Assembly: GCA_902617715.1 (NCBI GenBank)
Contig: CACMXS010000002.1
Coordinates: 1-64,000 of the forward strand
Source: an uncultured Pelagibacteraceae bacterium
Lineage (GTDB): Bacteria; Pseudomonadota; Alphaproteobacteria; Pelagibacterales; Pelagibacteraceae
DNA: 64,000 nt
Reading direction: 5' to 3'
Positions 5,027 through 64,000 of this stretch are shown piece after piece. Under the pieces are notes generated by a model that worked only from the letters and a program-made list of their open reading frames with translations, searched no databases and was not told the DNA's origin. How positions within the stretch are numbered: position 1 is the first letter of the stretch; the number at the start of each line of letters is the position of its first letter. Position numbers and translations under genes: made by a program.

Positions 5027-6970
5027 TTGAATAAACAATATAGGGAATTAGCTAATTGCATCCGATTTTTATCAATTGATGCTGTTCAAAAAGCAAACTC
5101 AGGTCACCCAGGTATGCCCATGGGTATGGCAGATGTAGCAACAGTGCTATTTAAAGATTTTTTAAATTTTGATCCAAACAACCCTAGTTGGGCTAATAGA
5201 GATAGATTTGTATTGTCTGCAGGCCATGGATCCATGCTTCTTTATTCCTTACTTTATCTTACTGGTTATAAGAGTGTTTCCTTAAAAGATATAAAAAGAT
5301 TTAGACAGCTTGACTCTATCTGTGCAGGACATCCAGAGTATCATCCTAATAGTGGCATTGAGACTACAACTGGTCCTTTAGGACAAGGAATATCTAATGC
5401 AGTTGGTTTTGCAATTTCTGAAGAAATTTTAAAAAAACAATTAGGGAAAAAAACTATAAATCATAAAACTTACGTACTTGCTGGTGATGGTTGTTTAATG
5501 GAGGGAATTAGTCACGAAACTCTAAGCCTAGCAGGACACCTTAAGCTAAAAAATTTAATTTTACTTTTTGATAATAATTCCATTTCAATTGATGGTCCTA
5601 CTAATTTGGCAGTTTCTGATAATCATGAAAAAAGATTTAAAAGTTATGGTTGGGATTATTTAAAAATTAATGGACATAATTATAAGGAAATATCAAAAGC
5701 TTTAAAAAAAGCTCAAAAATCTAAAAAACCTATAGCAATTTCTTGCAAAACAACAATTGGTTATGGATCTCCAAATAAAAGTGGCAAAGCATCATCTCAT
5801 GGAAGTCCATTAGGTGAGGATGAAATTAAATTAGTAAGAAAAAAATTAAAATGGAATTACAAACCTTTTGAGATTCCAGACAGGTTATTAAGTAAATGGA
5901 GAAAAATTGGAAAAAAAAATTTACAGCTATCAAAAAAATATGAGCAAAAAAATAGAAAAATTTTTTCAAATTTTGAAAATTTAAAATCCTTCAAAAATTT
6001 AATTGAAAAAGAAAAAATAAATTATTTGAAAGAATCAAAACCTCTTGCCACGAGAAAATCATCTGAAATGTTTTTAAATATTGTATCTAAATCACCAAAC
6101 TTAATAGGTGGTTCAGCTGACTTAGCAGGATCAAATAATACTAAAACAAAAAATCAAAATATTATAAAGCCTGGAAATTTTAATGGAAACTATATTCACT
6201 ATGGAGTTAGAGAACATGCAATGTGTGGAATAATGAACGGAATTGCATTACACGGTAATTTAGTTCCCTACGGTGGAACTTTTTTGATATTCAGTGACTA
6301 TTGTAAACCATCAATAAGACTGGCAGCCATGATGAAACAAAAAGTCATATATATATTTACCCATGATTCAATTGGACTAGGTGAAGATGGTCCAACTCAT
6401 CAACCAATTGAACAATTAACAGGTTTAAGATCTATTCCAAACTTAAATGTTTTTAGACCATCAGATCTTATTGAAACCTTTGAGTGCTGGCAATTAGCCC
6501 TTGAAAGTAAAAATACACCTAGCGTAATTGCACTTACTAGACAAGGAATTGATCCTGTAAGATTAAAAAATTCGACGAGAATAGAGTCATCTTATGGAGC
6601 TTATGAAATTTTAAGAACCGCTAATAAAATTAACTTAACAATTATAGCAACAGGATCGGAAACTAGTTTGGCATCTAAGGTCTGTCATAAATTAGCCACA
6701 GATGGGATTTACTCCAAAGTAATATCAATGCCTTGTCACGAATTATTTGATCAACAAAGTGAAGGCTACAAAAATAAAATTTTAGCCGAAACGAGTCTTG
6801 TTGTGTCAATAGAAGCCTCGGAAACAGATTATTGGAAAAAATACACAGGCAATAATGGACTAAATTTTGGAATAAATGACTTTGGAAAAAGTGCTCCTTA
6901 TAAAGAAATATACACTCATTTTAAACTAGACTTAGAAAATATAATTAAAAAAATTAAAGAAAAATTATGA
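5027..6970 (+). CDS. tkt: Transketolase
   Basis: A 647-residue full-length transketolase. Visible landmarks are GHPGMPMGMA with H27, the H67 in SAGHGSM, GPLGQG near 116-121, and the thiamine-diphosphate motif GDGCLMEG (153-160) ending in NNSISIDG. It moves two-carbon ketol units in the non-oxidative pentose phosphate pathway. The start is TTG (first codons TTGAATAAACAATAT), with an AGGA six bases upstream, one of the few Shine-Dalgarno-like sequences in this run. It heads the tkt-gap-pgk-fba-thiE-efp-suhB series and overlaps gap by four bases. A separate, split transketolase pair lies at 61.9-63.6 kb in the polysaccharide island. Confidence 0.98.
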   Translation: MNKQYRELANCIRFLSIDAVQKANSGHPGMPMGMADVATVLFKDFLNFDPNNPSWANRDRFVLSAGHGSMLLYSLLYLTGYKSVSLKDIKRFRQLDSICAGHPEYHPNSGIETTTGPLGQGISNAVGFAISEEILKKQLGKKTINHKTYVLAGDGCLMEGISHETLSLAGHLKLKNLILLFDNNSISIDGPTNLAVSDNHEKRFKSYGWDYLKINGHNYKEISKALKKAQKSKKPIAISCKTTIGYGSPNKSGKASSHGSPLGEDEIKLVRKKLKWNYKPFEIPDRLLSKWRKIGKKNLQLSKKYEQKNRKIFSNFENLKSFKNLIEKEKINYLKESKPLATRKSSEMFLNIVSKSPNLIGGSADLAGSNNTKTKNQNIIKPGNFNGNYIHYGVREHAMCGIMNGIALHGNLVPYGGTFLIFSDYCKPSIRLAAMMKQKVIYIFTHDSIGLGEDGPTHQPIEQLTGLRSIPNLNVFRPSDLIETFECWQLALESKNTPSVIALTRQGIDPVRLKNSTRIESSYGAYEILRTANKINLTIIATGSETSLASKVCHKLATDGIYSKVISMPCHELFDQQSEGYKNKILAETSLVVSIEASETDYWKKYTGNNGLNFGINDFGKSAPYKEIYTHFKLDLENIIKKIKEKL

Positions 6971-18661: not shown

Positions 18662-18777
18662 GCCTGGCAATGACCTACTCTACCATATCTTAAGACAAAG
18701 TACCATCGGCGCAGAAAGGCTTGACTTCCGAGTTCGGAATGGGATCGGGTATTACACTTTCGCAATAATCACCAGGC
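18662..18777 (-). rRNA. rrf: 5S ribosomal RNA (stand-alone)
   Basis: Read on the minus strand it begins GCCTGGTGATTATTGCG, has the conserved core CCCATTCCGAACTCGG and GCGCCGATGGTA, and ends CATTGCCAGGC; the ends pair (GCCTGG with CCAGGC) as helix I. About 116 bases long. No 23S or 16S sequence lies next to it: upstream is the polysaccharide island, as known for Pelagibacter. It must have its own promoter in the 95 bp before the next gene, or be read through from the island. No terminator separates it from the epimerase start seven bases later. Confidence 0.96.
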
Positions 18778-50344: not shown

Positions 50345-50899
50345 TTATTTTAATTTTGATTTAATCAAATCTACTATTGCAAGTAAGTAAAACTGATGAA
50401 CATTTTCAATAAGATTATACTTTTTTGAGTCTATCCAAAAATTGATATCACTATTACTATTTAAATAATTTTTTTCGTTAAATCCTGTAAAACTTATAAT
50501 TTTTGAAAAATTTTTTTTTCTTGCCGCCTTTAATCCATTAATCATATTTTTTGATTTACCACTAGATGAAATCAAAATCAAAATATCATTCCTACTTCCA
50601 TATTTTTTTATGACCCTTGAAATCCAATTTTCAAATTTAAAATCATTGGCGTAACAAGTTATGATACCAGGATCATTGTAATTTAAACATTTTGTGTGAG
50701 TATTATTTGTTAAATCCATACTAAAATGAGAAGCTATACTGGCACTACCACCATTTCCAAAAACATGAATTTTATTAACTTTTTTCAATTTTAAAATTAA
50801 ATTACAAATAAGTATTATTTTTTCAGATTGATTAGAAGCTTTCAATATCAACTTATTAAACTCCTCAATATATTTGTTCAAAAAAATTCTATTTTCCAT
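50345..50899 (-). CDS. SIS-domain sugar-phosphate isomerase (GmhA-like)
   Basis: A 184-residue protein with the phosphosugar loop HVFGNGGSASIASHFSMDL and the second site LILISSSGKSKNMINGL, the GmhA pattern. GmhA turns sedoheptulose-7-phosphate into D-glycero-D-manno-heptose-7-phosphate. It starts right where the HAD gene ends and lies near the HldE-like gene, so a heptose-type nucleotide pathway is likely, fed by the pentose phosphate pathway. Confidence 0.85.
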   Translation of the reverse strand: MENRIFLNKYIEEFNKLILKASNQSEKIILICNLILKLKKVNKIHVFGNGGSASIASHFSMDLTNNTHTKCLNYNDPGIITCYANDFKFENWISRVIKKYGSRNDILILISSSGKSKNMINGLKAARKKNFSKIISFTGFNEKNYLNSNSDINFWIDSKKYNLIENVHQFYLLAIVDLIKSKLK

Positions 50900-51253
50900 T
50901 TATTTTTCTAATATTGTGATTAACTTTTTTATCCAGTTTTTATTAAAACCATAACCTTTATCATCTATGTACATATCAGCTGATGGTTTTGATATAAATA
51001 ATTTATGATACTTTATTCTAAATTTTTTTATTTGCTTTGCTATTTTAAAATATTTTCTATTTTTATCTTTAATCAAATCATTTGACCTACCCATATACCT
51101 CGCAGTATAAATTTTGATGATATATCCTTTATCGTAAAGTTTATTAACTAATCTAATAGCATTTCTCTTTGGTTTAGAATTTTTATAGTCATTTCCCTTT
51201 GTAACACAAAGAGTATTATCTAAATCAAAACATAATGTTTTAAATTTTTGCAT
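50900..51253 (-). CDS. Small HAD-superfamily phosphatase
   Basis: A 117-residue HAD protein: LCFDLDNTLC provides the nucleophile D10 and acid D12, KIYTARYMG the Thr of motif II, and SADMYIDDKGYGF the metal-binding acidic pair. It is shorter than GmhB (about 180-190 residues), with no cap domain. In this setting it may dephosphorylate a heptose bisphosphate, but small HADs of this size in capsule clusters are largely uncharacterised. Start and stop sit directly between the HldE-like and GmhA-like genes. Confidence 0.75.
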   Translation of the reverse strand: MQKFKTLCFDLDNTLCVTKGNDYKNSKPKRNAIRLVNKLYDKGYIIKIYTARYMGRSNDLIKDKNRKYFKIAKQIKKFRIKYHKLFISKPSADMYIDDKGYGFNKNWIKKLITILEK

Positions 51254-51281: not shown

Positions 51282-52796
51282 CTAATTGAAAAGATATTCA
51301 AGATTTTTTTTGAAAATCTCGTAATTAAAATATTTATCATTGCCAAGATTACTTACAGTATAACTTGCAGCAATCGAAGCAAAAAACAGACAAAGGTCAG
51401 GTTCTATTTTTGACGATAGACACAAAGAGGCTATAGAAAAAAATGCGTCTCCAGATCCTATGGTGTCATCAGGATTTTGAACAAATGCCGGACAGAAAAA
51501 ATCTTTATCTTTTCTAAATAAATACGATCCAAATTTACCCTTAGTTATAATTAAGTTTTTATAATTATTTCTCATAATTAATTTTTTAGCTAAGTACCTT
51601 AATGGAGTTTTGTAATCTTTCATTCCAAATCTTAATTCATTTTCATTTACACATAGTGTATTTATATTTTTATATTTATCTAACGAATAACTTCCTATGT
51701 TATTAGAATTCAATTGAGAATTTACATAAAGTTTTTGTTTAAATTGTAACAAATTTTTTTTAACATTTTTAGTAATTTCACCATGAGAATAATCAACTAA
51801 AATTATAGTATCTACTTTTTTTGAAAAAAATTTTAATTTATTTAGATATTGTTTCTCAATTTTTGAGTCTAAATATTTTTCATCTATATCATAAATACCT
51901 AAAATTTTGATATTTTTATAAGAATCTAGATATCTCATTTTCATAAAAGTATTTGAATTTTTTTTCACTAAATAATTATATCTTAACTTTTTATTTAACT
52001 TTTTTTTAATAAAATTAATTTCATTATTTTTCTCTCCAACACAAAAGATATAATTAGTATTTTTTGAAAAAGTTGAACAAATATTAGCTACTAAAGCTGA
52101 TCCTCCTAAAAATTTTTTTTTGGAATTTTCTTTATATACCAACATTGGCTCTTTACCTGATTTACCTAAAACATCTAAAAAATTGTAAATATCTATTATC
52201 AACTCACCAAGTATAAATGATGAATTATTTTTTAATTTTAATAAAGAATTATTGATTACATCTTTTTTAAATTTTGACCTTAATCTTAAGACATGTTTAG
52301 AATAAAGATCATTTTTTGAAATCAGATCTAAATCATTTGATTTGATAATTTTATTTGAACTTTTTTTTATGTGCTTGACCGTGATAAATTTTCCTTTGTT
52401 CTTTTTTAAAATTTTTAATTCTTTTTTTAAATTTATGTCTTTATTTTTTTTTTTAATATAATCTGGTCCTTTGCAGTAAATATCTGGCTTTAAATCATCT
52501 ATATTTTTCTCAGCTGTTTGGTGATCACTTTGAATTACAAAATCAATCATGGATAAATTTTTTAGTACATTAATCCTATCTTTCGTGGAATTAATTGGTC
52601 TAAATGGCCCTTTGTTAACAAACTTATCTGTTGTAACAGACACTACCAAAATATCACCCAGACTTTTTGCTTGTTTAAAATATTCTATGTGGCCCGAATG
52701 TATAACATCAAATACACCATGACACATTACTACTTTTTTTTTTTTCTTTTTGACGGTAGATATTGCTAATTTAAATTCTTCTTGCATTTCAATCAT
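51282..52796 (-). CDS. HldE-like enzyme with swapped domain order (nucleotidyltransferase, then PfkB kinase)
   Basis: A 504-residue two-domain protein. Residues about 20-150 are a cytidylyltransferase-fold domain: VMCHGVFDVIHSGHIEYF (HxGH) and INSTKDRINVL. Residues about 190-504 are a PfkB sugar kinase: GGSALVANICSTF and the catalytic NPDDTIGSGDAFFSIA. In E. coli HldE the kinase comes first and the nucleotidyltransferase second, so this arrangement is reversed. It would phosphorylate a heptose-phosphate at C1 and activate it. It lies between a glycosyltransferase gene (41 bp) and the HAD gene (28 bp). Confidence 0.85.
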   Translation of the reverse strand: MIEMQEEFKLAISTVKKKKKKVVMCHGVFDVIHSGHIEYFKQAKSLGDILVVSVTTDKFVNKGPFRPINSTKDRINVLKNLSMIDFVIQSDHQTAEKNIDDLKPDIYCKGPDYIKKKNKDINLKKELKILKKNKGKFITVKHIKKSSNKIIKSNDLDLISKNDLYSKHVLRLRSKFKKDVINNSLLKLKNNSSFILGELIIDIYNFLDVLGKSGKEPMLVYKENSKKKFLGGSALVANICSTFSKNTNYIFCVGEKNNEINFIKKKLNKKLRYNYLVKKNSNTFMKMRYLDSYKNIKILGIYDIDEKYLDSKIEKQYLNKLKFFSKKVDTIILVDYSHGEITKNVKKNLLQFKQKLYVNSQLNSNNIGSYSLDKYKNINTLCVNENELRFGMKDYKTPLRYLAKKLIMRNNYKNLIITKGKFGSYLFRKDKDFFCPAFVQNPDDTIGSGDAFFSIASLCLSSKIEPDLCLFFASIAASYTVSNLGNDKYFNYEIFKKNLEYLFN

Positions 52797-54583: not shown

Positions 54584-55489
54584 TTAAGATTTAAAGTAAT
54601 AACTATTTTTTTTATTTTCTTTTATTTTTTTAAAAAAATATTCTAATTTGAAATTTTTAGTATTACTTATGCGTCTAAATTTATTTGTTGAGAGAGTATT
54701 ATATAAAGGTCTTCTCTCAATAACTGCAAAAGAATTAATTTTTTTAGGTACTAATTTTACATTATTGATATTAAAAAATTTTTTTATTTTTTTTGCTAAA
54801 CTCAAAATATCAACTTCTTTTATCGAACTTATATGGAATATTCCCAGACAATTTTTTTTTAAAAGTTTTTCAATGTAGAAAGTCATATCGTCAACATATA
54901 TTGGGGAAAATTTTTGATCATAAGCACAAAATATTTTTTTTGATGATTTCATTTTTTTTAACAATTGTGTCACTAAAGTTTTATCATTCAAATCTAGACC
55001 AAATACTTTACTCATTCTTACTATTAAGTATTTTTGATTTTTCTTAAGTATATATTTTTCAACTTTATCTTTTATCTTGCCATAGTTGTTAATTGGTTTT
55101 TTTAAATCTTTTTCTTTATAATTTCCTTTTTGGCCATCAAACACTGCATCAGATGAAATATAAACTGGTATTATGCCGTTTTCAGAACAATAATTAATAA
55201 TTTCTTTAGTTCTTTCAAGGTTAACAAAATATGAATTTTTTAATTTTTTTTTTGTTTTATCGAGATTAGCATTTATTGCGTGGGCTAAAACAATATATCT
55301 TAAATTTTTTTTTGTTCTTAAAAAATTTTTAATTTTTTTTTTAACGTCAAATAAAAGAAGGCCTTTTTTTTTATTTTTGAAGTACGAACCGTAAACTTTA
55401 TATTTTTTTTTTTTTAAATAATGGAATAAATTACTTCCGATATAACCTGACGCACCTATAATAAGGATATTGTGATTATTTTGTCTCAA
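54584..55489 (-). CDS. RmlD-like NAD(P)-dependent sugar reductase
   Basis: A 301-residue SDR of the RmlD substrate-binding group: ILIIGASGYIGSNLFHYL, YISSDAVFDGQKGNYKEKDL and the catalytic NNYGKIKDK (YxxxK). RmlD reduces dTDP-4-keto-rhamnose; relatives in glycan islands reduce other 4-keto sugars. The C-methyltransferase products encoded upstream would be suitable substrates. It lies 20 bases after the radical SAM gene. Confidence 0.82.
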   Translation of the reverse strand: MRQNNHNILIIGASGYIGSNLFHYLKKKKYKVYGSYFKNKKKGLLLFDVKKKIKNFLRTKKNLRYIVLAHAINANLDKTKKKLKNSYFVNLERTKEIINYCSENGIIPVYISSDAVFDGQKGNYKEKDLKKPINNYGKIKDKVEKYILKKNQKYLIVRMSKVFGLDLNDKTLVTQLLKKMKSSKKIFCAYDQKFSPIYVDDMTFYIEKLLKKNCLGIFHISSIKEVDILSLAKKIKKFFNINNVKLVPKKINSFAVIERRPLYNTLSTNKFRRISNTKNFKLEYFFKKIKENKKNSYYFKS

Positions 55490-55509: not shown

Positions 55510-57141
55510 TTAGTGTGTTGATTGTTCTAATGTAGGTATTTTTTCCTCAAAAAACTTTTTGCTCCGCTCATCAGTTCCATAAACTTGCTCATCGGTTTTA
55601 TCAGCACTTTTAACTTCAACACCTGCATTTTGCCTAGTTTCTTTTCTCCAAATTTTTAATTCTTCCATGGTTATCCCAAGCATTTTTGCAATTTTCTGAT
55701 GATGATCTGGTCTATTTGATGGAAAATTAATTCTATCCCACTCATAAGCTCTTTTAATTTGAAGTTCAATAGCTGTCCATTCCTCAGTATTTATAACTCC
55801 TTTTCCAAAACCATAAAAATCCTCGGGTTTTAAGTCTTCTGGTATTACTTTCATTTTTTTTGCATCCTCATACATTTCCGTTCCCGGTAATGGCGTAGCT
55901 ATGGAAAATAGAGAGTAATCTAATATTCTATCCTGATTTGTAATTTTATCAGCAAATTCAAATGTTGTTAAAATATCATTCCAAGTATCTCCGGGCATTC
56001 CTATTATGAAATTAGACGCTATCTCATCAAATCCATAATTTCTCATTTCATGCAATCTAATCACCGCATGCTCTAGATTAGTAGGTCTTTTCATTCTCTT
56101 AAATGTTTCCGGCGAACCAGACTCTAATGATATACTTATTTGATAACATCCTGACTCTTTCATCCAAAATAATAAATCATCTTTACCTTTCTTTTCTTTA
56201 ATAGTATGTGGCAAGGGAATATGTCTTAGATCTAAGTTATTTGATTTCCATACTAAATCGTATCCTTCTTCCCTCAACTTTGTTATACCTTTTAAAATAT
56301 CTATGATTCTATCTCTAGGTAATAGCAAACTATCATCAACAAATATAATTTCTCTTATCCCGTGATTTTTAACAAGATGTTTTATCTCTTCAATAATGCT
56401 TCCTGGAGACCTTCTTTTAATTCCATCATTTATTGGATTTCCATCTTTTCCAGCTCCACAATATGTGCATTTATAAACACAACCCCTAGAGGTCATCATA
56501 ATAGTCATTGGTAGTTGTCGAAATTGAAAATTTTGAGTATATTTTTGGCTCCAAGAAAATAATCTTTTTGTATTGTAATCACTGTAATCTGGGAATGGTA
56601 GGTCATCTAAATTTTTAACGTTTCCAATAGCCTTACGAGGATTATGTTTCCAAATATTGTCTTCGTCTCTGTAATGAAGTCCGTCAATATGTTGAAAATC
56701 TTTTTTATTTTTTATTGCATCCATAAGTTTGAGTAGTCTCTCTTCTCCCTCAGATATTACGACGAAATCTATATTTTCATCCTCCTTTGCAACATCGGGT
56801 GATATAGATGGATAAACTCCTCCGATAACAGTTTTTGAATTTGGTTTTGCTTTTTTAATTATAGCAAAAGATTTATGGACCGAGTCCCTATATTCAACAC
56901 TTAAGGCACTAATACCAACAACCTTTCCAGCTTTTTCTTTGAGAATTTGTAAGAGTTCATCTTCGGTAAGATTTTCTGTATTAGCATCAATGTGATTTAC
57001 TGAATAACCATTTTTTCTTAAAACAGCAGTTAAAATCCCCTCTGGATAAGGTATATGATTCCAGTATCTTCCCTCACCACCTTTGTGCCATCTTGTATTA
57101 GGAATTACAAAAGTAAAATCTACTTGTTTAGTTTCAGACAT
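55510..57141 (-). CDS. B12-binding-domain radical SAM protein
   Basis: A 543-residue protein of the B12-binding radical SAM class. The N-terminal about 150 residues form the cobalamin-type Rossmann fold (PEGILTAVLRKNGYSVNHID, VVGISALSVEYRDS, KTVIGGVYPSISPD); the cluster motif CxxxCxxC is CVYKCTYC near residue 220, followed by FVDDSLLLPRDRI. Such enzymes methylate unreactive carbons or rearrange skeletons. Its protein is less lysine-rich and has fewer homopolymer runs than its neighbours, suggesting a different history. A 48 bp gap precedes it. Confidence 0.88.
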   Translation of the reverse strand: MSETKQVDFTFVIPNTRWHKGGEGRYWNHIPYPEGILTAVLRKNGYSVNHIDANTENLTEDELLQILKEKAGKVVGISALSVEYRDSVHKSFAIIKKAKPNSKTVIGGVYPSISPDVAKEDENIDFVVISEGEERLLKLMDAIKNKKDFQHIDGLHYRDEDNIWKHNPRKAIGNVKNLDDLPFPDYSDYNTKRLFSWSQKYTQNFQFRQLPMTIMMTSRGCVYKCTYCGAGKDGNPINDGIKRRSPGSIIEEIKHLVKNHGIREIIFVDDSLLLPRDRIIDILKGITKLREEGYDLVWKSNNLDLRHIPLPHTIKEKKGKDDLLFWMKESGCYQISISLESGSPETFKRMKRPTNLEHAVIRLHEMRNYGFDEIASNFIIGMPGDTWNDILTTFEFADKITNQDRILDYSLFSIATPLPGTEMYEDAKKMKVIPEDLKPEDFYGFGKGVINTEEWTAIELQIKRAYEWDRINFPSNRPDHHQKIAKMLGITMEELKIWRKETRQNAGVEVKSADKTDEQVYGTDERSKKFFEEKIPTLEQSTH

Positions 57142-57189: not shown

Positions 57190-57693
57190 TTACAAAGTGT
57201 TAATAAATTTTTTTACCTCAAATTGATTATTTTCAGATGGTGACCATTTGGCATAAATAGTTTTTTTTTTTAAAAGAGGACCTTCTGTTGTTTCGTGAAA
57301 AATGAAATTTTTTGATTTTAATTTAAATGTATGAAACACAGAACTAGAAAGTCGATAATAAAAAGTAAATTTATCTTTTTTAGCACTTAACCTAATTTTT
57401 TTTATAATTTTACCTTTGTAATCAAAAAAGATAACATCAGCCAATCCCTCAATAACATGTAGTGATTCTGCTTTATTAATATGTTTGTGCGGCCTAATGT
57501 AAGTGTCCTTTGACAAAATAATTATCATCTCATGTAACTTGCTCTTTTGATTTTTATGCAAACAAATTCTTGCTCTTTTTCTTTTTGTAAATTTTACTCT
57601 TTTTTTCAAAAAGCTAATGTGTTTTTGGGTAATAAACGCAATACCTTTTTTCACATAATAAACTTCATTATTTATTTTTTTTAAACTTTTCAT
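57190..57693 (-). CDS. wbuC: WbuC-family cupin-fold protein
   Basis: A 167-residue protein with the WbuC pattern: RARICLHKNQKSKLHEMIII, then TYIRPHKHINKAESLHVIEG, carrying the cupin metal-ligand histidines. WbuC genes are widespread in O-antigen clusters, often beside C-methyl or fucose genes; the reaction is not established. It overlaps the methyltransferase gene upstream by four bases. Confidence 0.85.
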   Translation of the reverse strand: MKSLKKINNEVYYVKKGIAFITQKHISFLKKRVKFTKRKRARICLHKNQKSKLHEMIIILSKDTYIRPHKHINKAESLHVIEGLADVIFFDYKGKIIKKIRLSAKKDKFTFYYRLSSSVFHTFKLKSKNFIFHETTEGPLLKKKTIYAKWSPSENNQFEVKKFINTL

Positions 57694-58877
57694 GTTTTAC
57701 TAAAAGTGTATTTACTTTTATTATATATAGAAAAAAACTTAATTTTATTTTTTAATTTATTTTTTAATTTGAGAATGATTTTTTTTTCACTCTCAGAATT
57801 TACTCCTAAAATAATTAATATTTTAGACATTTTATTAATTTGAGTTGAGTCTATTATTTTTAAATTTGAATTTGGTAAAATTAGATCTTGTTTATTTCTA
57901 TCATCGTCAATAACTAAATCGATCAAATTGTGAAGCTTCAAGATATTCAAAAATGTACATGCAGCATGACCTGTTCCAAATAAACATATTTTATAATCAT
58001 TTAATTTAAATTTATTAATTAAATCTTTTATTTTTTTTTTATCTTTATTTAGTCGTGTTAAGTTAAAGTTTATTTTAGTTTTTTTTAAAGTAATATTTTT
58101 TTTCTCCAATTTTTCATCAAATTTAACAATTAAAATAAGAACGTTTTCATATGAATATTCGTACTTTTTAAAATAAAGAATTCTAAAATTCATATTCAAA
58201 AAAAGTCTTTTTAAAGTATTTTCGGTAAAATATAAAATATGTTCCTCCCAAATAGATGCATAATCTCTTGAATTTAAAGAATCCTTGCAGTCTGGAACTT
58301 CAAAAACTAAATAGCCATTTTTTTTTATCAATTTTTTCAAAGATTTTATAAAATTAATTGTATCATAACTGTGCTCAAGAATATGCCTTGCAATTAATAT
58401 ATCTGCTTTTTTTTTTTTAATCTTAACAATATTTTTTTTGCTAAATTTCGAAATTTTTTCTTGAATAGTTTCAAGATTTGATTTCGGATCACTGATATCA
58501 AGATCCTTTTTCATATTAAGGTACCAGGTTTTATCAAAACCAGCTCTATTAAATCTTTTAAGTGTAGAAATCTCCTTGTAACTTACTCCTGCAATTATAG
58601 AATTTTTGTTAATATTTTTTAAACTTTTTAATTTATTTACTAATTCATCCAAATGTTCTTCAGGTTCATTATAATTGATCCAATTATATTTAGGCTTAAG
58701 TTCTTTAACTGGAAATAATTTATTTAATTGAACTAAATCACATTTTTTACAAATTCCAATTTCTAATCTAAATTTTCTATCCTTATCAGTTTTATTCTTA
58801 TATTTGTGACAAACAGGAAAGCTTCCAAAACTAATAATTTTTTTTAAATTAATTTTTTTACAAATTCTACATTTCAT
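57690..58877 (-). CDS. Zinc-ribbon sugar C-methyltransferase-like protein, divergent
   Basis: A 395-residue protein built like NDP-sugar C-methyltransferases: an N-terminal zinc ribbon (CRICKKI and CKKCDLVQL), a methyltransferase core (ADILIARHILEHSYDTINF, VFEVPDCKDSLN, WEEHILYFTENTLKRLF) and the C-terminal Rossmann-like domain (ICLFGTGHAACTFLNIL). Motif I is hard to see, so it may be a non-methylating paralogue of the next gene. The two lie four bases apart. Confidence 0.75.
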   Translation of the reverse strand: MKCRICKKINLKKIISFGSFPVCHKYKNKTDKDRKFRLEIGICKKCDLVQLNKLFPVKELKPKYNWINYNEPEEHLDELVNKLKSLKNINKNSIIAGVSYKEISTLKRFNRAGFDKTWYLNMKKDLDISDPKSNLETIQEKISKFSKKNIVKIKKKKADILIARHILEHSYDTINFIKSLKKLIKKNGYLVFEVPDCKDSLNSRDYASIWEEHILYFTENTLKRLFLNMNFRILYFKKYEYSYENVLILIVKFDEKLEKKNITLKKTKINFNLTRLNKDKKKIKDLINKFKLNDYKICLFGTGHAACTFLNILKLHNLIDLVIDDDRNKQDLILPNSNLKIIDSTQINKMSKILIILGVNSESEKKIILKLKNKLKNKIKFFSIYNKSKYTFSKT

Positions 58878-58881
58878 AATT

Positions 58882-60141
58882 TTAAGAATATTTTTTTGAA
58901 ATAATCTTTAATTCTGGAAAACACACAATGAACGAGCCACCATTCTCCAAATATTTTTGATGATTTTTAATAATATTTTTAGAATGCACCCATGCTAAAA
59001 TTAAAAGATAATCAGGTTTATTTTCATAAATATAATTTGTTGGACGAACTAATATATGATCACCTGGAGAGTATTTATTATGTTTTTGCTCATTATCATC
59101 AACCATATATTGAATTAATTTACCAATTTGCATTTGGGTTATTAAGGTAGTACCACTTCTAGCTGCACCGAAACCAGCGATTGTTTTTTTCTCGTCATTA
59201 ATATTCTTTAAGAGAGAAGTAATTTTTTCTTTAGACTTATGAAGTTTTTTTGAAAAATTTTCTAATGTTTCAAATTTATCAATTTTTTTTTCATTTTCTA
59301 GTTTGATAATATTTTTAACAGAATCATTTTTTTTATATTTTCCATTTTTAAACTGAACAACACCTATAAGGGATCCACCTTGAATAGAATTTCTTGTGAT
59401 ATCAATAAGTTCCATATCAAATTTACTAAAAAATATTTCTAATGGCTTAATTGAATGGTAAGAATGATGTTCATGAAAAATTGTGCCTAACAATACGTTG
59501 TCTATTACATCTACTAAATATGAAATTTCAAAAACAAATAAAGATTCTGTATTCATAAGAGTTTTGATGCCTTGCATAATTTCTTTTAAATTGTCCATGT
59601 GAGCAAAAGCGTTATTTGCTGTAATTATTTTGGCTTTTCCATTTTCTTTTACGATTTTTTCAGCTAATTTTTGATCAAAAAACTTTGGAATAGTTCTTAT
59701 TCCATCATTAGAGGCTTTTGAAGCAATCTCTGTTGCCGGGTCTACTCCTAAAACTTGAATATTTTTTTTTTTAAAAAACTTAAGCAAAGTGCCATCGTTA
59801 CTGCCTATATCAACAACAAGTCCATTTCCTGAAATTTTGAATTTTTCACATATATAATTTGCGTAATTTTCAAAATGGTCAACCAAGCCTTTAGATCTTC
59901 CACTTGAGTAAGTATAATCACTATATAGATAATTAGGATCCACAATGTCTAGAAGCTGAACGTGTCCACAGCTCAAACAAATATATAGATCTAAAGGACA
60001 AATTAATTCCTCATTTTCTAACTCATTTTTTTTTAGATATTTTTCCGCAACAGGTGTAGGTAAAAGGGGAACAACAAGTTTTAATTTTTTACTTTCGCAA
60101 AGTCTACAATTATCTCTTTTAGATAATAAATTTTTTTTCAT
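58882..60141 (-). CDS. NDP-sugar C-methyltransferase (TylC3/NovU type)
   Basis: A 419-residue three-domain protein: zinc ribbon with CRLCESKKL and CLSCGHVQLLDIVDPNYLYS, a complete SAM site VVDIGSNDGTLLKFFKK, the signature GTIFHEHHSYHSIKPL, and the C-terminal IAGFGAARSGTTLI domain. These enzymes add a methyl group at C3 (or C5) of a 4-keto-6-deoxy sugar nucleotide. It sits between a second C-methyltransferase-like gene and a third methyltransferase, indicating a branched-chain sugar. Confidence 0.9.
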   Translation of the reverse strand: MKKNLLSKRDNCRLCESKKLKLVVPLLPTPVAEKYLKKNELENEELICPLDLYICLSCGHVQLLDIVDPNYLYSDYTYSSGRSKGLVDHFENYANYICEKFKISGNGLVVDIGSNDGTLLKFFKKKNIQVLGVDPATEIASKASNDGIRTIPKFFDQKLAEKIVKENGKAKIITANNAFAHMDNLKEIMQGIKTLMNTESLFVFEISYLVDVIDNVLLGTIFHEHHSYHSIKPLEIFFSKFDMELIDITRNSIQGGSLIGVVQFKNGKYKKNDSVKNIIKLENEKKIDKFETLENFSKKLHKSKEKITSLLKNINDEKKTIAGFGAARSGTTLITQMQIGKLIQYMVDDNEQKHNKYSPGDHILVRPTNYIYENKPDYLLILAWVHSKNIIKNHQKYLENGGSFIVCFPELKIISKKYS

Positions 60142-60159: not shown

Positions 60160-60825
60160 TTACTCAAAGTAAATAAATTCATAATCTCCTTGATATCCGA
60201 ATTGATTATAAATCCATATCCACTCATCAGGACTAAAGAAAGATTGGCATGTCAAAGCCCAGCACTCTAAATTAAATAATTCCAAATCATTTCTAAAACT
60301 TTCTACGCAGATATAACTATTTTTGCTTACCCTTTGAATTTCTTTCAAAGCTTTTGATAAATCAAAAATTTTTAAATTATGTAAAGTGTTTATTGAAATT
60401 GTTAAGTCGTATTCCTTGTCTTGGAAAGGATAAACTTCTTGTGCTTGATGGCAAAAAAGATTTTGTTTAACTTCTTCTTTTGAATTATCTAAAGCATATT
60501 TAGATGAATCAAACCCACGAACTTCTATTTTTGGAAGTAATAATTTTATTTCATAAAGCAAAAAACCTTTTCCACACCCTACATCTAAAATTTTTGAGTT
60601 ATTATCTAAATTATATTTTTGTATTAAAATTTCAGCCACAGGCTTCCATCTTCCTTTAATGTACTTATAGCCACCATAGCCAAACCTCCTACTCCCATCC
60701 CAATATTCTTCGCCATATTTTTTAGCTTCTAACATGCACTCAACTTTCTGATCATTCATTCGATCTAAGTATGATCTATGTGTAGATTTATGAAGAGATG
60801 AAATATAATTTACTAAGTTGCCCAT
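60160..60825 (-). CDS. Class I SAM-dependent methyltransferase
   Basis: A 221-residue protein with a good SAM site SKILDVGCGKGFLLYEI, the acidic strand-2 end VRGFDSSKYALDNS, and YDLTISINTLHNL. The N-terminus HRSYLDRMNDQKVECMLEAK plus YWDGSRRFGYGGYKY is shared with small methyltransferases of sugar clusters. Substrate unknown. It is five bases after the alcohol dehydrogenase. Confidence 0.85.
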   Translation of the reverse strand: MGNLVNYISSLHKSTHRSYLDRMNDQKVECMLEAKKYGEEYWDGSRRFGYGGYKYIKGRWKPVAEILIQKYNLDNNSKILDVGCGKGFLLYEIKLLLPKIEVRGFDSSKYALDNSKEEVKQNLFCHQAQEVYPFQDKEYDLTISINTLHNLKIFDLSKALKEIQRVSKNSYICVESFRNDLELFNLECWALTCQSFFSPDEWIWIYNQFGYQGDYEFIYFE

Positions 60826-60830
60826 GGTTT

Positions 60831-61859
60831 TTATTTCGGCATTTTGATAATTATACGACCCGAGTTACCAGTCCGTAATAATTTGATTGCTTTATTAATT
60901 TCTTTTAACTCAAACTGATGGGTTATCAAATTATTCAACTTTAATTTATTTTTTTTTACTAAATTAATATATCTTGGAATATCCATATCAGGCTCTGCTG
61001 ATCCGCCATGCGAACCTTTTAAAATTTTGTTGAAATGCAATGGCAATGAATAAATTGAAATTTTTTTATTTGGTACGCCTACTAAAATTGTTTTTCCATT
61101 TTCATTAGTTATATTATATGATTGTTCTATAACTTTCGATTTTCCCGTTGTATCTATTACTACATCAGCACCTTTTGAACCTAAAATTTTAAAAATTTTT
61201 TTATTCAAATTTTTTGTATTACTCAATAATCCATGAGATAAACCATATTTTTTTCCTAATTGAATTTTATTCTTTTTTAAATCAATTCCAATTATTGGAT
61301 CCGCAGAAACCATTTTTGCTGCTTGAGCAATATTTAAACCAACTCCGCCCACCCCAAAAATTACTACCGATTGACCAATTTTAATTTTTGCATCATTATT
61401 TACTACTCCAAAACCTGTTAAAATTGCACAACCAAATAAAGGTGCAATTCGAGAATTAAAATTTTTGGGTATTGGAGTTAACCTATTTTCTGAGACAACT
61501 GCTTTTTCACTAAAAGTAGTGACTCTGCCTGAATTAAGTTTTTTTCCCTTCCACTTATATTTTGGTGGTTCACACTCTATGCCTGCACTTTTTCGCCAAT
61601 GTAAAACTACTTGGTCTCCTTTTTTAACTCTTGTTACTCCTTCACCAATCTTCTCTACTATGCCAGAACCTTCATGGCCAAGTAAATGAGGTAAATATTT
61701 ATCTGGTCCTTTAGTGGCATCAATTTCGTTTAATTGAGATCCACATATACCACTATACAAAATTTTGACCAACACTTGTCCAAACCCCAACTCTTTAGGA
61801 AGTTCAACCTCATCTATTACTAAAGGTTTTTTGTTTTGAACTAAAATTGCAGCTTTCAT
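60831..61859 (-). CDS. Zinc-type alcohol dehydrogenase family protein
   Basis: A 342-residue MDR enzyme: LYSGICGSQLNEID (catalytic-zinc Cys), LLGHEGSGIVEKIGEGV (His/Glu) and the nucleotide loop VVIFGVGGVGLNIAQAA. The four-cysteine structural-zinc lobe of classical ADH is not visible (the region reads GIECEPPKYKWKG). It probably oxidises or reduces a sugar hydroxyl. It overlaps the transketolase C-subunit gene by four bases, so it acts in the same pathway. Confidence 0.88.
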   Translation of the reverse strand: MKAAILVQNKKPLVIDEVELPKELGFGQVLVKILYSGICGSQLNEIDATKGPDKYLPHLLGHEGSGIVEKIGEGVTRVKKGDQVVLHWRKSAGIECEPPKYKWKGKKLNSGRVTTFSEKAVVSENRLTPIPKNFNSRIAPLFGCAILTGFGVVNNDAKIKIGQSVVIFGVGGVGLNIAQAAKMVSADPIIGIDLKKNKIQLGKKYGLSHGLLSNTKNLNKKIFKILGSKGADVVIDTTGKSKVIEQSYNITNENGKTILVGVPNKKISIYSLPLHFNKILKGSHGGSAEPDMDIPRYINLVKKNKLKLNNLITHQFELKEINKAIKLLRTGNSGRIIIKMPK

Positions 61860-62782
61860 TTCGTTAAATTCAGTATTTCTTTATAGATAATATCAGTAGT
61901 TAACCCGTGCTTACTCAATAAATCATCTTGGTCACCATAACAATGAATAAATTTATCTTTTAATGAAAAATTCAAAATTTTACCTAAATAAGATTGCTCA
62001 TAAGCTTTTGATTTAACAATTTCATTTAATCCACCAATTTCTGAATGATCTTCAATCAAAATTATTGATTTAAATTTTTTAAATTTTTTTTTAAGACCAT
62101 TTAAATCAAAAGGTTTAAGTGTATGGCAGCTATTTATTTCAATACTCAAATTTTTTTTTTCTAATTTTTTTGAAATTTCAAAAGCTTTTCTAATTATGGG
62201 TCCAAAAGTGAGTATGCAAACATCTTTACCTGGTTTAATTAATCTAATTTTACCAAATTTCCATTTTTCACTTTGTTTGTTTATAAAAGTTTCCTCTCCA
62301 GCTTTTCCAATTCTTAAATAAGTTGGTCTATTTCTTTTTTTTGAACAAAACTCTACCACATCGCTAAGTTCATCTGGATCACACGGAGCTATTATATCCA
62401 TGTTAGGGACTGATCTTGCGACTGATATATCTTCTTGTGCCAAATGAGTTCCACCTAATGTAGAATAAGTGGTTCCAGGGCCCATTCCTACTATAGTTAC
62501 AGGTAAATTTTGATAACAAAGATCAACCCTAATCATTTCAAATGGTCTATAGAGAGCAAATGTAGCAATTGTATAACAAAAAGGTTTTAAACCTCTCAAA
62601 GCCATTCCAGCTGCAATTCCAACCATAGACTGCTCCGCAACTCCAGTATTAATGAATCTATTAGGAAATTTTTTTCTAAATTTTTCCATTGATCCTGCTG
62701 GCGAAATATCTGCTACCAGGACACAAATCTTTTTATTTTTTAAACCTAATTTATAAATTACATCTGCTAGTTTATTTCGCAT
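61856..62782 (-). CDS. Split transketolase, C-terminal subunit
   Basis: A 308-residue protein covering the pyrimidine-binding and C-terminal transketolase domains: NTGVAEQSMVGIAAGMALRG (catalytic Glu), MGPGTTYSTLGGTHLAQEDI, and MDIIAPCDPDEL. It pairs with the N-subunit gene three bases upstream to form one thiamine-diphosphate active site. A complete housekeeping Tkt is encoded at 5 kb, so this pair is dedicated to something else, presumably two-carbon transfer onto a sugar of the surface glycan. Two-subunit transketolases are also known from apulose-phosphate metabolism. Confidence 0.9.
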   Translation of the reverse strand: MRNKLADVIYKLGLKNKKICVLVADISPAGSMEKFRKKFPNRFINTGVAEQSMVGIAAGMALRGLKPFCYTIATFALYRPFEMIRVDLCYQNLPVTIVGMGPGTTYSTLGGTHLAQEDISVARSVPNMDIIAPCDPDELSDVVEFCSKKRNRPTYLRIGKAGEETFINKQSEKWKFGKIRLIKPGKDVCILTFGPIIRKAFEISKKLEKKNLSIEINSCHTLKPFDLNGLKKKFKKFKSIILIEDHSEIGGLNEIVKSKAYEQSYLGKILNFSLKDKFIHCYGDQDDLLSKHGLTTDIIYKEILNLTK

Positions 62783-62785
62783 AAT

Positions 62786-63598
62786 TTAGATATGTTTAAG
62801 CTCTTTTATTGCAATATCATATTCTTTAGAATTTGGAGATCTATAATGCCATATTGGTTTATTTTCCATAAATGAAACTCCTTTGCCTTTTATAGTATTT
62901 GCAACAATCATTAGAGGTTTTTTTGTTTTTCTTTTTTTAATACTATTTAAAATTTCTTTTGTATTATGACCATCTATTTCGACACACTCCCATCCAAAAG
63001 ATAAAATTTTTTTATTCATAGGATAAAATTTTGGATGTGTCTTTTTGGTAATTCCAAATGACTGAGACCCATTATGATCAACAAAACAAATTAGATTATT
63101 TAAATTTAAGTTTGCAGCCATCATCATATTTTCCCATGTTGATCCCTCTTGTAGTTCACCATCACTAATAACTAGAAATAATTTACGATTAATCTTATTT
63201 ATTTTGTCAGCGTGAGCCATTCCAACAGCCAAGCCCATTCCATGACCCAATGAGCCTGTGGATGCCTCTATCCCTGGTAATCCATAATCAGGATGACTAC
63301 CTAGTTTGCCATTTTTAGTGCAATAATTTTCTAAATATTTTTTTGCCATTATTCCTAAATTTTCTAAAACAACATACTGAGCCATACAACCGTGTCCTTT
63401 TGACATTAGAAAAGTATCTCTAAAATACTTATGTTTTTTGGTTTTTTTTCTCATTAGTCCATAATAAATACAATCAACTAATTCAATAACTGAAAAAGCA
63501 CCGGCAGCATGAATTGCTCTAACTTTTTGTGATATGTCTAAGATGCGTTTTCTATAATTTAAGCATCTATTTTTTGATTCTTTAATAAATCTTTTCAT
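62786..63598 (-). CDS. Split transketolase, N-terminal subunit
   Basis: A 270-residue protein matching the diphosphate-binding domain: IHAAGAFSVIELVDCIYYGL, MSKGHGCMAQYVVLENLG, STGSLGHGMGLAVGMA and the ThDP motif ISDGELQEGSTWENMMMAAN (Ser in place of the first Gly of GDG), then FVDHNGSQSFG. It overlaps the upstream epimerase gene by four bases and precedes the C-subunit, so the complex is made with the NDP-sugar enzymes. Confidence 0.9.
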   Translation of the reverse strand: MKRFIKESKNRCLNYRKRILDISQKVRAIHAAGAFSVIELVDCIYYGLMRKKTKKHKYFRDTFLMSKGHGCMAQYVVLENLGIMAKKYLENYCTKNGKLGSHPDYGLPGIEASTGSLGHGMGLAVGMAHADKINKINRKLFLVISDGELQEGSTWENMMMAANLNLNNLICFVDHNGSQSFGITKKTHPKFYPMNKKILSFGWECVEIDGHNTKEILNSIKKRKTKKPLMIVANTIKGKGVSFMENKPIWHYRSPNSKEYDIAIKELKHI

Positions 63599-64000
63599 TT
63601 TTTATGTTGGTATTTCTCGTCTGATTTTGAAAATGAATTTAAATTTGTCTTAACCCAGCTTATACATTTGTCTAAACCCTCGTCTAGATTGATTTTAGGT
63701 TTCCATTTAAATTCTTTACGAATTTTTTTATTAGATAATGAATAGAATTTATCTTTGCCTACCCTCTCTGGTGAAAATTTAACTAATTGATTAAAATTGT
63801 AATTCATTTTTTTACAAATATTTCTAACCAAATCTTTGATTGAAATTACGTGATCGCTAGAAATATGATAAATTTCACCATTCTTACCCTTTTTCATAAC
63901 TTCATAAGTTGCGTCAGAAACATCATCAATATGAATAAAATTTCTAGAGGATTTACCTCCACCATCTAGTTTTAATCTCTTTTTCTTCAATATGCAGTAA
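63595..64000 (-). CDS. NAD-dependent epimerase/dehydratase, C-terminal part (runs off right edge)
   Basis: The track begins this at a TTG (63990), but the frame stays open to the window end, so the gene is cut by the edge. The visible 135 or so residues contain LKLDGGGKSSRNFIHIDDVS and YEVMKKGKNGEIYHISSDH, the C-terminal substrate domain of dTDP-glucose 4,6-dehydratase and UDP-sugar epimerase types, ending DEGLDKCISWVKTN. Such a dehydratase would supply the 4-keto sugar for the C-methyltransferases downstream. Exact specificity needs the missing part. Confidence 0.85.
   Translation of the reverse strand, partial: YCILKKKRLKLDGGGKSSRNFIHIDDVSDATYEVMKKGKNGEIYHISSDHVISIKDLVRNICKKMNYNFNQLVKFSPERVGKDKFYSLSNKKIRKEFKWKPKINLDEGLDKCISWVKTNLNSFSKSDEKYQHKK

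Follow-up and report, generated by a model that had tools for sequence, protein, structure and literature searches.

Split transketolase genes in a SAR11 glycan island

We analyzed a window of 64,000 nucleotides (positions 1 to 64,000 of contig CACMXS010000002.1, GenBank assembly GCA_902617715.1) from an uncultured Pelagibacteraceae bacterium, whose kinship with SAR11 was read from the nearest records. The source contig measures 76.8 kb. Towards the end of the window, two adjacent genes encode a transketolase (TK) that is divided between an N-terminal subunit binding thiamine diphosphate (ThDP), termed TKn, and a subunit with the pyrimidine-binding and C-terminal domains, termed TKc (Table 1). 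Both genes belong to a glycan island of about 50 kb that is flanked by 5S rRNA on one side and by 23S rRNA on the other. An O-chain island, hypervariable region 2 (HVR2), interrupts the rRNA operon in SAR11 (PMC7318151; PMC2217521), and the position of the island examined here matches it.

All genes of the cassette that contains the pair lie on the minus strand. Their open reading frames are coupled exactly as a first-pass annotation of this DNA had claimed: a gene for a short-chain dehydrogenase/reductase (SDR), SDR63595, overlaps TKn by 4 bp, TKn and TKc are separated by 3 bp, and TKc overlaps the gene for an alcohol dehydrogenase (ADH) by 4 bp. The gap between the ADH and methyltransferase MT60160 is 5 bp. 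The complete housekeeping transketolase (Tkt) that had been placed near 5 kb is also present, and a search of the genome with TKc matched nothing besides it and the pair itself.

The pair is recognizable as a transketolase of the two-subunit ThDP form from its domains and from the residues for ThDP and Mg binding and for catalysis, all of which are present. In human TKT numbering, TKn keeps the equivalents of His37, His77, His110, His258, Asp155 and Asn185, and TKc keeps that of Glu366 and has a histidine at position 428, as does the split enzyme of Carboxydothermus. TKn scores 202 bits with the transketolase model versus 37 bits with that for 1-deoxyxylulose-5-phosphate synthase (DXS), and TKc scores nearly equally with the two (DXS TIGR00204, 164 bits; TK NF004559, 156 bits). 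For both subunits the transketolase models score far above those for the E1 component of pyruvate dehydrogenase, and the pair is not of the E1 alpha/beta type found in alpha-keto acid dehydrogenase 2 (AviB1/B2). Nor is it a single-chain ThDP decarboxylase like YerE, since its transketolase domains are spread over two genes. An AlphaFold model of TKc alone had a pLDDT of 73, with values mostly below 50 for residues 73-116 in the substrate-site region, and was not used.

Table 1. Positions of the features discussed, in window coordinates unless another locus is named
Feature	Position	Strand	Basis or remark
5S rRNA, island border	18662..18776	-	
23S rRNA, opposite island border	contig 69235-71987 (C2:69235-71987), beyond window		
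TKn, N-terminal ThDP-binding subunit	62786..63598	-	Pfam PF00456 (Transketolase_N) 4e-32; PDB 6yak split TK E 2e-49
TKc, pyrimidine-binding and C-terminal subunit	61856..62782	-	PF02779 (Transket_pyr) 1e-29, PF02780 (Transketolase_C) 1e-18; PDB 6yaj E 2e-48
Housekeeping transketolase, 647 aa, contrast enzyme outside the system	5027..6970	+	keeps His416/Asp424/Arg474/Arg101 equivalents
SDR63595, extended SDR, dTDP-glucose 4,6-dehydratase-like	63595..64587, past window end at 64000 (L003:3595-4587)	-	PDB 6bi4 E 6e-40
Zinc-type medium-chain dehydrogenase/reductase ADH	60831..61859	-	ADH_N/ADH_zinc_N
MT60160, class-I S-adenosylmethionine (SAM) methyltransferase tied to glycan-type split TKs	60160..60825	-	Pfam class-I methyltransferase
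CMT58882, TylC3/TcaB9-type sugar C-methyltransferase	58882..60141	-	Methyltransf_13/14; PDB 4rv9 E 5e-71
CMT57690, C-methyltransferase-like paralogue	57690..58877	-	Pfam Methyltransf_13/14; lacks SAM motif I
WbuC-family cupin	57190..57693	-	TIGR04366 129 bits, cut-off 42
B12-binding radical SAM protein, conserved cassette	55510..57141	-	PF02310/PF04055
RmlD-like SDR reductase	54584..55489	-	TIGR01214 132 bits, below cut-off
HldE-like, nucleotidyltransferase then PfkB kinase domain	51282..52796	-	CTP_transf_like + PfkB
Small HAD phosphatase, EcbF/BcbF-like	50900..51253	-	TIGR01689 42 bits, below cut-off
SIS-domain isomerase, GmhA-like	50345..50899	-	TIGR00441 86 bits, below cut-off 209
TIGR04323/TIGR04324 occurrences	L090:12278-13471, also L083, L085, L088, L091, L093, L094, L099		

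Altered residues in the substrate pocket

Catalytic histidines are thus conserved, including the equivalent of His110, which contacts the hydroxyacetyl group in transketolase and which is present in nearly all clade members. The acceptor site is changed: the pair carries His416 to Gly, Asp424 to Leu and Arg474 to Lys replacements in TKc, and Arg101 to Cys in TKn, whereas both controls, the housekeeping Tkt and the Carboxydothermus split TK, retain all four residues. In human TKT, His416, Arg474 and Arg318 contact phosphate, Asp424 belongs to the positions facing the sugar phosphate or the acceptor, and Arg101 pairs with Asp424. The combination Gly/Leu/Cys or Ser/Lys at positions 416/424/101/474 occurs throughout the window's clade and in most of a wider clade (see below), and the pair lacks the residue set of a canonical pentose-phosphate transketolase (His416, Asp424, Arg474 and the salt-bridge partner Arg101). 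When S385, D469 and R520 of Escherichia coli TK were altered, substrate preference moved off phosphorylated aldehydes, and D469 forms a salt bridge with R91 (PMC5073344). Both partners of a salt bridge of this type, Asp424 and Arg101, have been lost together in the pair. The sequence indicates that the acceptor is not one of the standard aldose phosphates, and does not by itself point to a ketone. The rebuilt pocket and the location in a surface-glycan island support the earlier proposal of a dedicated pair that is distinct from the housekeeping Tkt.

A separate SAR11 clade of split TKs has Ala/Leu at positions 416/424 (L049-L052, L054, L057, L059, L061).

Recurrence and phylogeny

The cassette is found in the same order in three other SAR11 genomes (L004-L006; TKc identity 74-80%), one of them represented by a short contig that ends inside the cassette (L004), and more distant, rearranged versions occur in L007-L009. 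TKc has a match at E <= 1e-40 in 62 of 397 Pelagibacteraceae genomes. Relatives of the pair were found throughout the phylum, and also on plasmids of Methylovirgula, Azospirillum, Solidesulfovibrio and Paenibacillus. Restriction to a single genome, which the first-pass annotation had named as an outcome that would count against it, is hence not the case: the pair recurs in many.

In a tree of joined TKn and TKc sequences, built by a quick search without bootstrap, the window falls in a 21-row clade with 100% support in the Shimodaira-Hasegawa-like approximate likelihood ratio test (SH-aLRT) and a long stem; an earlier tree agrees on this clade. It is nested in a 56-row clade of "glycan" split TKs (95% SH-aLRT) that spans Alphaproteobacteria, other Pseudomonadota, Desulfovibrionales and Paenibacillus. 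Outside it fall the housekeeping enzyme, the split TK of Carboxydothermus, the LysW-type Streptomyces pairs and catabolic pairs. A phage origin was considered and rejected: a search of viral contigs yielded no relative, and matches in records labeled 'phage' were below 36% identity and mostly unannotated.

Relatives encoded beside CDP-glucose genes

A sister subclade gives the best indication of mechanism. In five loci (L101, from SAR11, and L102, L106, L138 and L143) the pair adjoins genes for glucose-1-phosphate cytidylyltransferase and CDP-glucose 4,6-dehydratase, such that the split TK is clearly encoded together with genes that make keto sugars. L143 is a single compact operon of overlapping genes, rfbF-rfbG-CMT-SDR-TKn-TKc, in which rfbF (426 bits, cut-off 300) and rfbG (448 bits, cut-off 278) are firmly assigned. 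A Paenibacillus plasmid (L106) has the same gene order followed by an O-methyltransferase gene, and there an SDR epimerase/dehydratase domain is naturally fused to TKn in one protein of 635 amino acids (L106:5097-7001). L102 also has rfbH, and with it the genes that should suffice to make CDP-3,6-dideoxy-4-keto-glucose, the sugar that YerE branches in yersiniose synthesis. The gene content of these operons predicts that the natural acceptor of their split TKs is a CDP-keto sugar.

Gene partners of the pair

Presence of candidate partners in SAR11 was counted on whole genomes, nine with the split TK and 20 near-complete ones without it. The HldE-like protein is present in 9/9 versus 3/20 (p = 2e-5), the short-chain dehydrogenase/reductase SDR65567 in 9/9 versus 4/20 (p = 7e-5), and CMT58882 in five of nine versus nine of 20 (p = 0.70), p-values that serve as a guide only, since the compared genomes are related. 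The specific C-methyltransferase link that had been proposed was thus not upheld for SAR11, and we rejected this enzyme as a specific partner there, even though a C-methyltransferase is present in the L143 and L106 operons. In SAR11 the pair is in fact partnered by MT60160, the HldE-like protein and SDR65567. The HldE-like protein is also common in TK loci of other Alphaproteobacteria.

Of the fetched loci, 22 of the 29 that are of glycan type contain a homologue of MT60160, as against none of seven controls, and a gene of this type lies within 10 kb of TKc in 14 of the 16 genomes with the best TKc matches. Methyl transfer may be the more constant step, because in Solidesulfovibrio MT60160 is 56% identical and TKc 29%. 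The SAM motif of MT60160 (D81, G83-K86) is invariant in A2; a PDB profile search returned generic methyltransferases only and gave no clue to its substrate.

Uncharacterized families of the "sporadic carbohydrate cluster", TIGR04323 and TIGR04324 (an oxygenase of the 2-oxoglutarate-Fe type), accompany glycan-type split TKs and MT60160 in many loci; a literature search for this cluster name gave no match.

Other genes of the island

SDR63595 scores 211 bits with TIGR01181, below the curated cut-off of 365. The ADH, which is also present in TK loci L004-L007, L089, L092 and L132, is a candidate either for reduction of a two-carbon branch or for oxidation that produces a ketone acceptor. A CDP-alditol route through a TarJ-like ADH was discarded, as no such model matched and the nearest relatives of the ADH are class-III/NDMA-type enzymes.

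Three methyltransferases had been annotated downstream, including one of the TylC3 type. The type assignment of CMT58882 stands: its PDB match, an intact motif I (DIGSNDG) and the succession of Methyltransf_13, SAM motif and Methyltransf_14 place it in the TylC3/TcaB9 group. The number may be two, because SAM motif I is missing from CMT57690, as it is from every homologue seen (L005:13909-15078; L006:13892-15067; L083:4335-5519). With its zinc and C-terminal domains retained, CMT57690 may have a different function.

The HldE-like protein falls short of HldE itself, with 100 bits for the kinase (cut-off 345), 116 bits for the nucleotidyltransferase (cut-off 181.5) and the two domains in reversed order. 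At 86-89% identity in L005 and L006, the B12-binding radical SAM protein exceeds its cassette neighbors; it reaches no curated family cut-off.

At the head of the operon (L003:4648-5505) are a MarR_EPS regulator (TIGR04176) and a protein of 166 amino acids that we read as NusG/RfaH-like, although it matches no family. A TK cluster in L090 likewise begins with relatives of both, and one in L089 with a relative of the regulator. Acetolactate synthase is among the HVR2 genes of SAR11 strain HTCC1062 (PMC2217521); look-alike ThDP enzymes of the acetolactate synthase type, as read from their sequences, share clusters with the split TK at L087:14566-16305, L089:6477-8207 and L092:1-870.

A proposed reaction and its alternatives

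These observations suggest that the pair works outside ordinary central metabolism and adds two-carbon units in the making of unusual surface sugars. We propose that it is a dedicated ketol transferase whose substrate is a keto sugar in nucleotide-activated form and whose product is a two-carbon-branched surface sugar, a reading to which we assign a probability of roughly 0.5. It is built on sequence evidence, namely the enzyme family, intact ThDP and catalytic residues, altered acceptor site, clade membership and recurrent gene partners, from which we infer subunit assembly, donor, acceptor, branching and the order of steps. TKn and TKc would assemble as one two-subunit ThDP enzyme. A ketose or hydroxypyruvate would donate a two-carbon ketol (hydroxyacetyl) unit, carried as dihydroxyethyl-ThDP, to an acceptor that differs from ordinary aldose phosphates. 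Most likely this is a nucleotide-activated 4-keto (deoxy) sugar that the operon itself supplies and that would react at its ketone. The transfer would leave the sugar with a tertiary alcohol and a hydroxyacetyl branch of two carbons; the ADH or an SDR might reduce this product and MT60160 methylate it before the finished sugar enters the SAR11 O-chain.

Several points weigh against this proposal. A catabolic-looking locus (L114) encodes a TK that likewise has Leu in place of Asp424 and lacks Arg101, and LysW-type TKs, which probably use an aldehyde, have no Asp424 either; because these changes are shared, those at 424 and 101 alone are no proof of a ketone acceptor. Arg318 is retained, and Ser345 was dropped as evidence since the alignment around it was unstable between runs. 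The argument from CDP-glucose genes draws on the sister subclade, and the constant partner in the window's own subclade is the HldE-like enzyme, which is compatible with other pathways as well.

Because that enzyme, instead of CDP-glucose chemistry, may supply the activated sugar in the window, a linear higher-carbon sugar stays as the main rival, though we consider it unlikely. The ketol unit would here be added to an aldehyde to give an unusual higher-carbon ketose. The SIS, HAD and HldE-like proteins would convert this into a nucleotide-activated sugar, heptose-like or longer, for dehydration, methylation and incorporation into the glycan. The HldE-like protein is the most constant SAR11 partner by the counts above, the GmhA-like isomerase and the small HAD phosphatase adjoin it in the window, matches to all three lie near the pair in L082, and the split TKs AziC5/C6 are reported to lengthen an aldehyde by two carbons (PMC9570651). 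Yet SIS and HAD genes were not found in most TK loci and the HldE-like gene is absent from the CDP-glucose loci. Furthermore, a route through heptose 7-phosphate would need a phosphorylated acceptor, and the phosphate-contact residues are changed.

The same GmhA/HldE-like set in the island, together with a family and catalytic residues that are those of transketolase, would also suit a redundant ordinary enzyme that merely boosts the supply of sedoheptulose 7-phosphate or pentose phosphates to a glycan pathway. We regard this as improbable, given that a housekeeping tkt is already present, that the clade has jointly exchanged His416, Asp424, Arg101 and Arg474 for other residues, and that the sister enzymes lie in CDP-glucose operons needing no pentose phosphate. 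We give equally small weight to a decarboxylating enzyme that, like DXS or AviB1/AviB2, would use pyruvate or another 2-oxo acid to attach an acetyl branch. TKc does match DXS and TK models about equally, and the characterized sugar-branching ThDP enzymes (YerE and the alpha-keto acid dehydrogenase 2 types) add acetyl-type units (PMC12247030), but the scores of TKn clearly favor transketolase, His110 is kept, and the Arg and Asp typical of DXS at positions 416/424 are absent.

If ketol transfer to a keto sugar is correct, it would add to the known ways in which ThDP enzymes make branched sugars and would explain part of the variable-surface chemistry of a bacterium that is among the most abundant in the ocean, with a possible bearing on phage recognition. 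Somewhat short of even, in our estimate, are the chances of the broader proposition that a widespread and previously unrecognized class of split TKs, from SAR11 to Paenibacillus, makes two-carbon-branched surface-glycan sugars by moving ketol units onto keto sugars bound to a nucleotide, as a transketolase counterpart of YerE. TK-catalyzed addition to a ketone has only been proposed, according to a 2025 review that lists solely Streptomyces candidates (PMC12247030), and the compact L143 operon offers a self-contained system for testing it.

Comparison with known systems

We found no paper on split TKs in surface-glycan clusters, which is weak evidence of absence, as subscription journals lay mostly outside the coverage of the search. 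The closest proposals concern miharamycin and amipurimycin, for which the 2025 review describes two-subunit TKs thought to branch a keto sugar by hydroxyacetyl transfer; its 13 putative split-gene candidates are all from streptomycetes, and none has been studied in vitro (PMC12247030). Compared by description only, those enzymes belong to Streptomyces biosynthetic gene clusters, whereas the type in the window occurs in surface-glycan clusters of SAR11 and other bacteria. AviB1/AviB2 (avilamycin) and Pau11/Pau12 (paulomycin) are likewise two-protein ThDP enzymes proposed for two-carbon branching of sugars (PMC4753412), but they are of the alpha-keto acid dehydrogenase type and add an acetyl branch (PMC12247030), while the window pair is of the transketolase type.

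AziC5/AziC6 of azinomycin and the LysW-type split TKs resemble the pair in extending a specialized acceptor by two carbons (PMC9570651). Their acceptor, however, is a glutamate-derived aldehyde, and the representatives in L112 and L113 keep His416 and Arg474 and fall outside the glycan clade. These two loci, on Streptomyces plasmids, combine LysW/ArgC/kinase clusters with a split TK and an aminotransferase, and resemble azinomycin/vazabitide-type pathways. The Carboxydothermus hydrogenoformans split TK (PDB 6yaj/6yak) is the best solved relative of both subunits and is split identically, but retains the standard phosphate and acceptor residues. YerE, like the proposed enzyme, uses ThDP to place a two-carbon branch on a sugar destined for O-antigen, in its case CDP-3,6-dideoxy-4-keto-glucose, for which L102 has the upstream genes. 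The two differ in that YerE is a single-chain enzyme of the decarboxylase type that uses pyruvate, whereas the window encodes a split transketolase.

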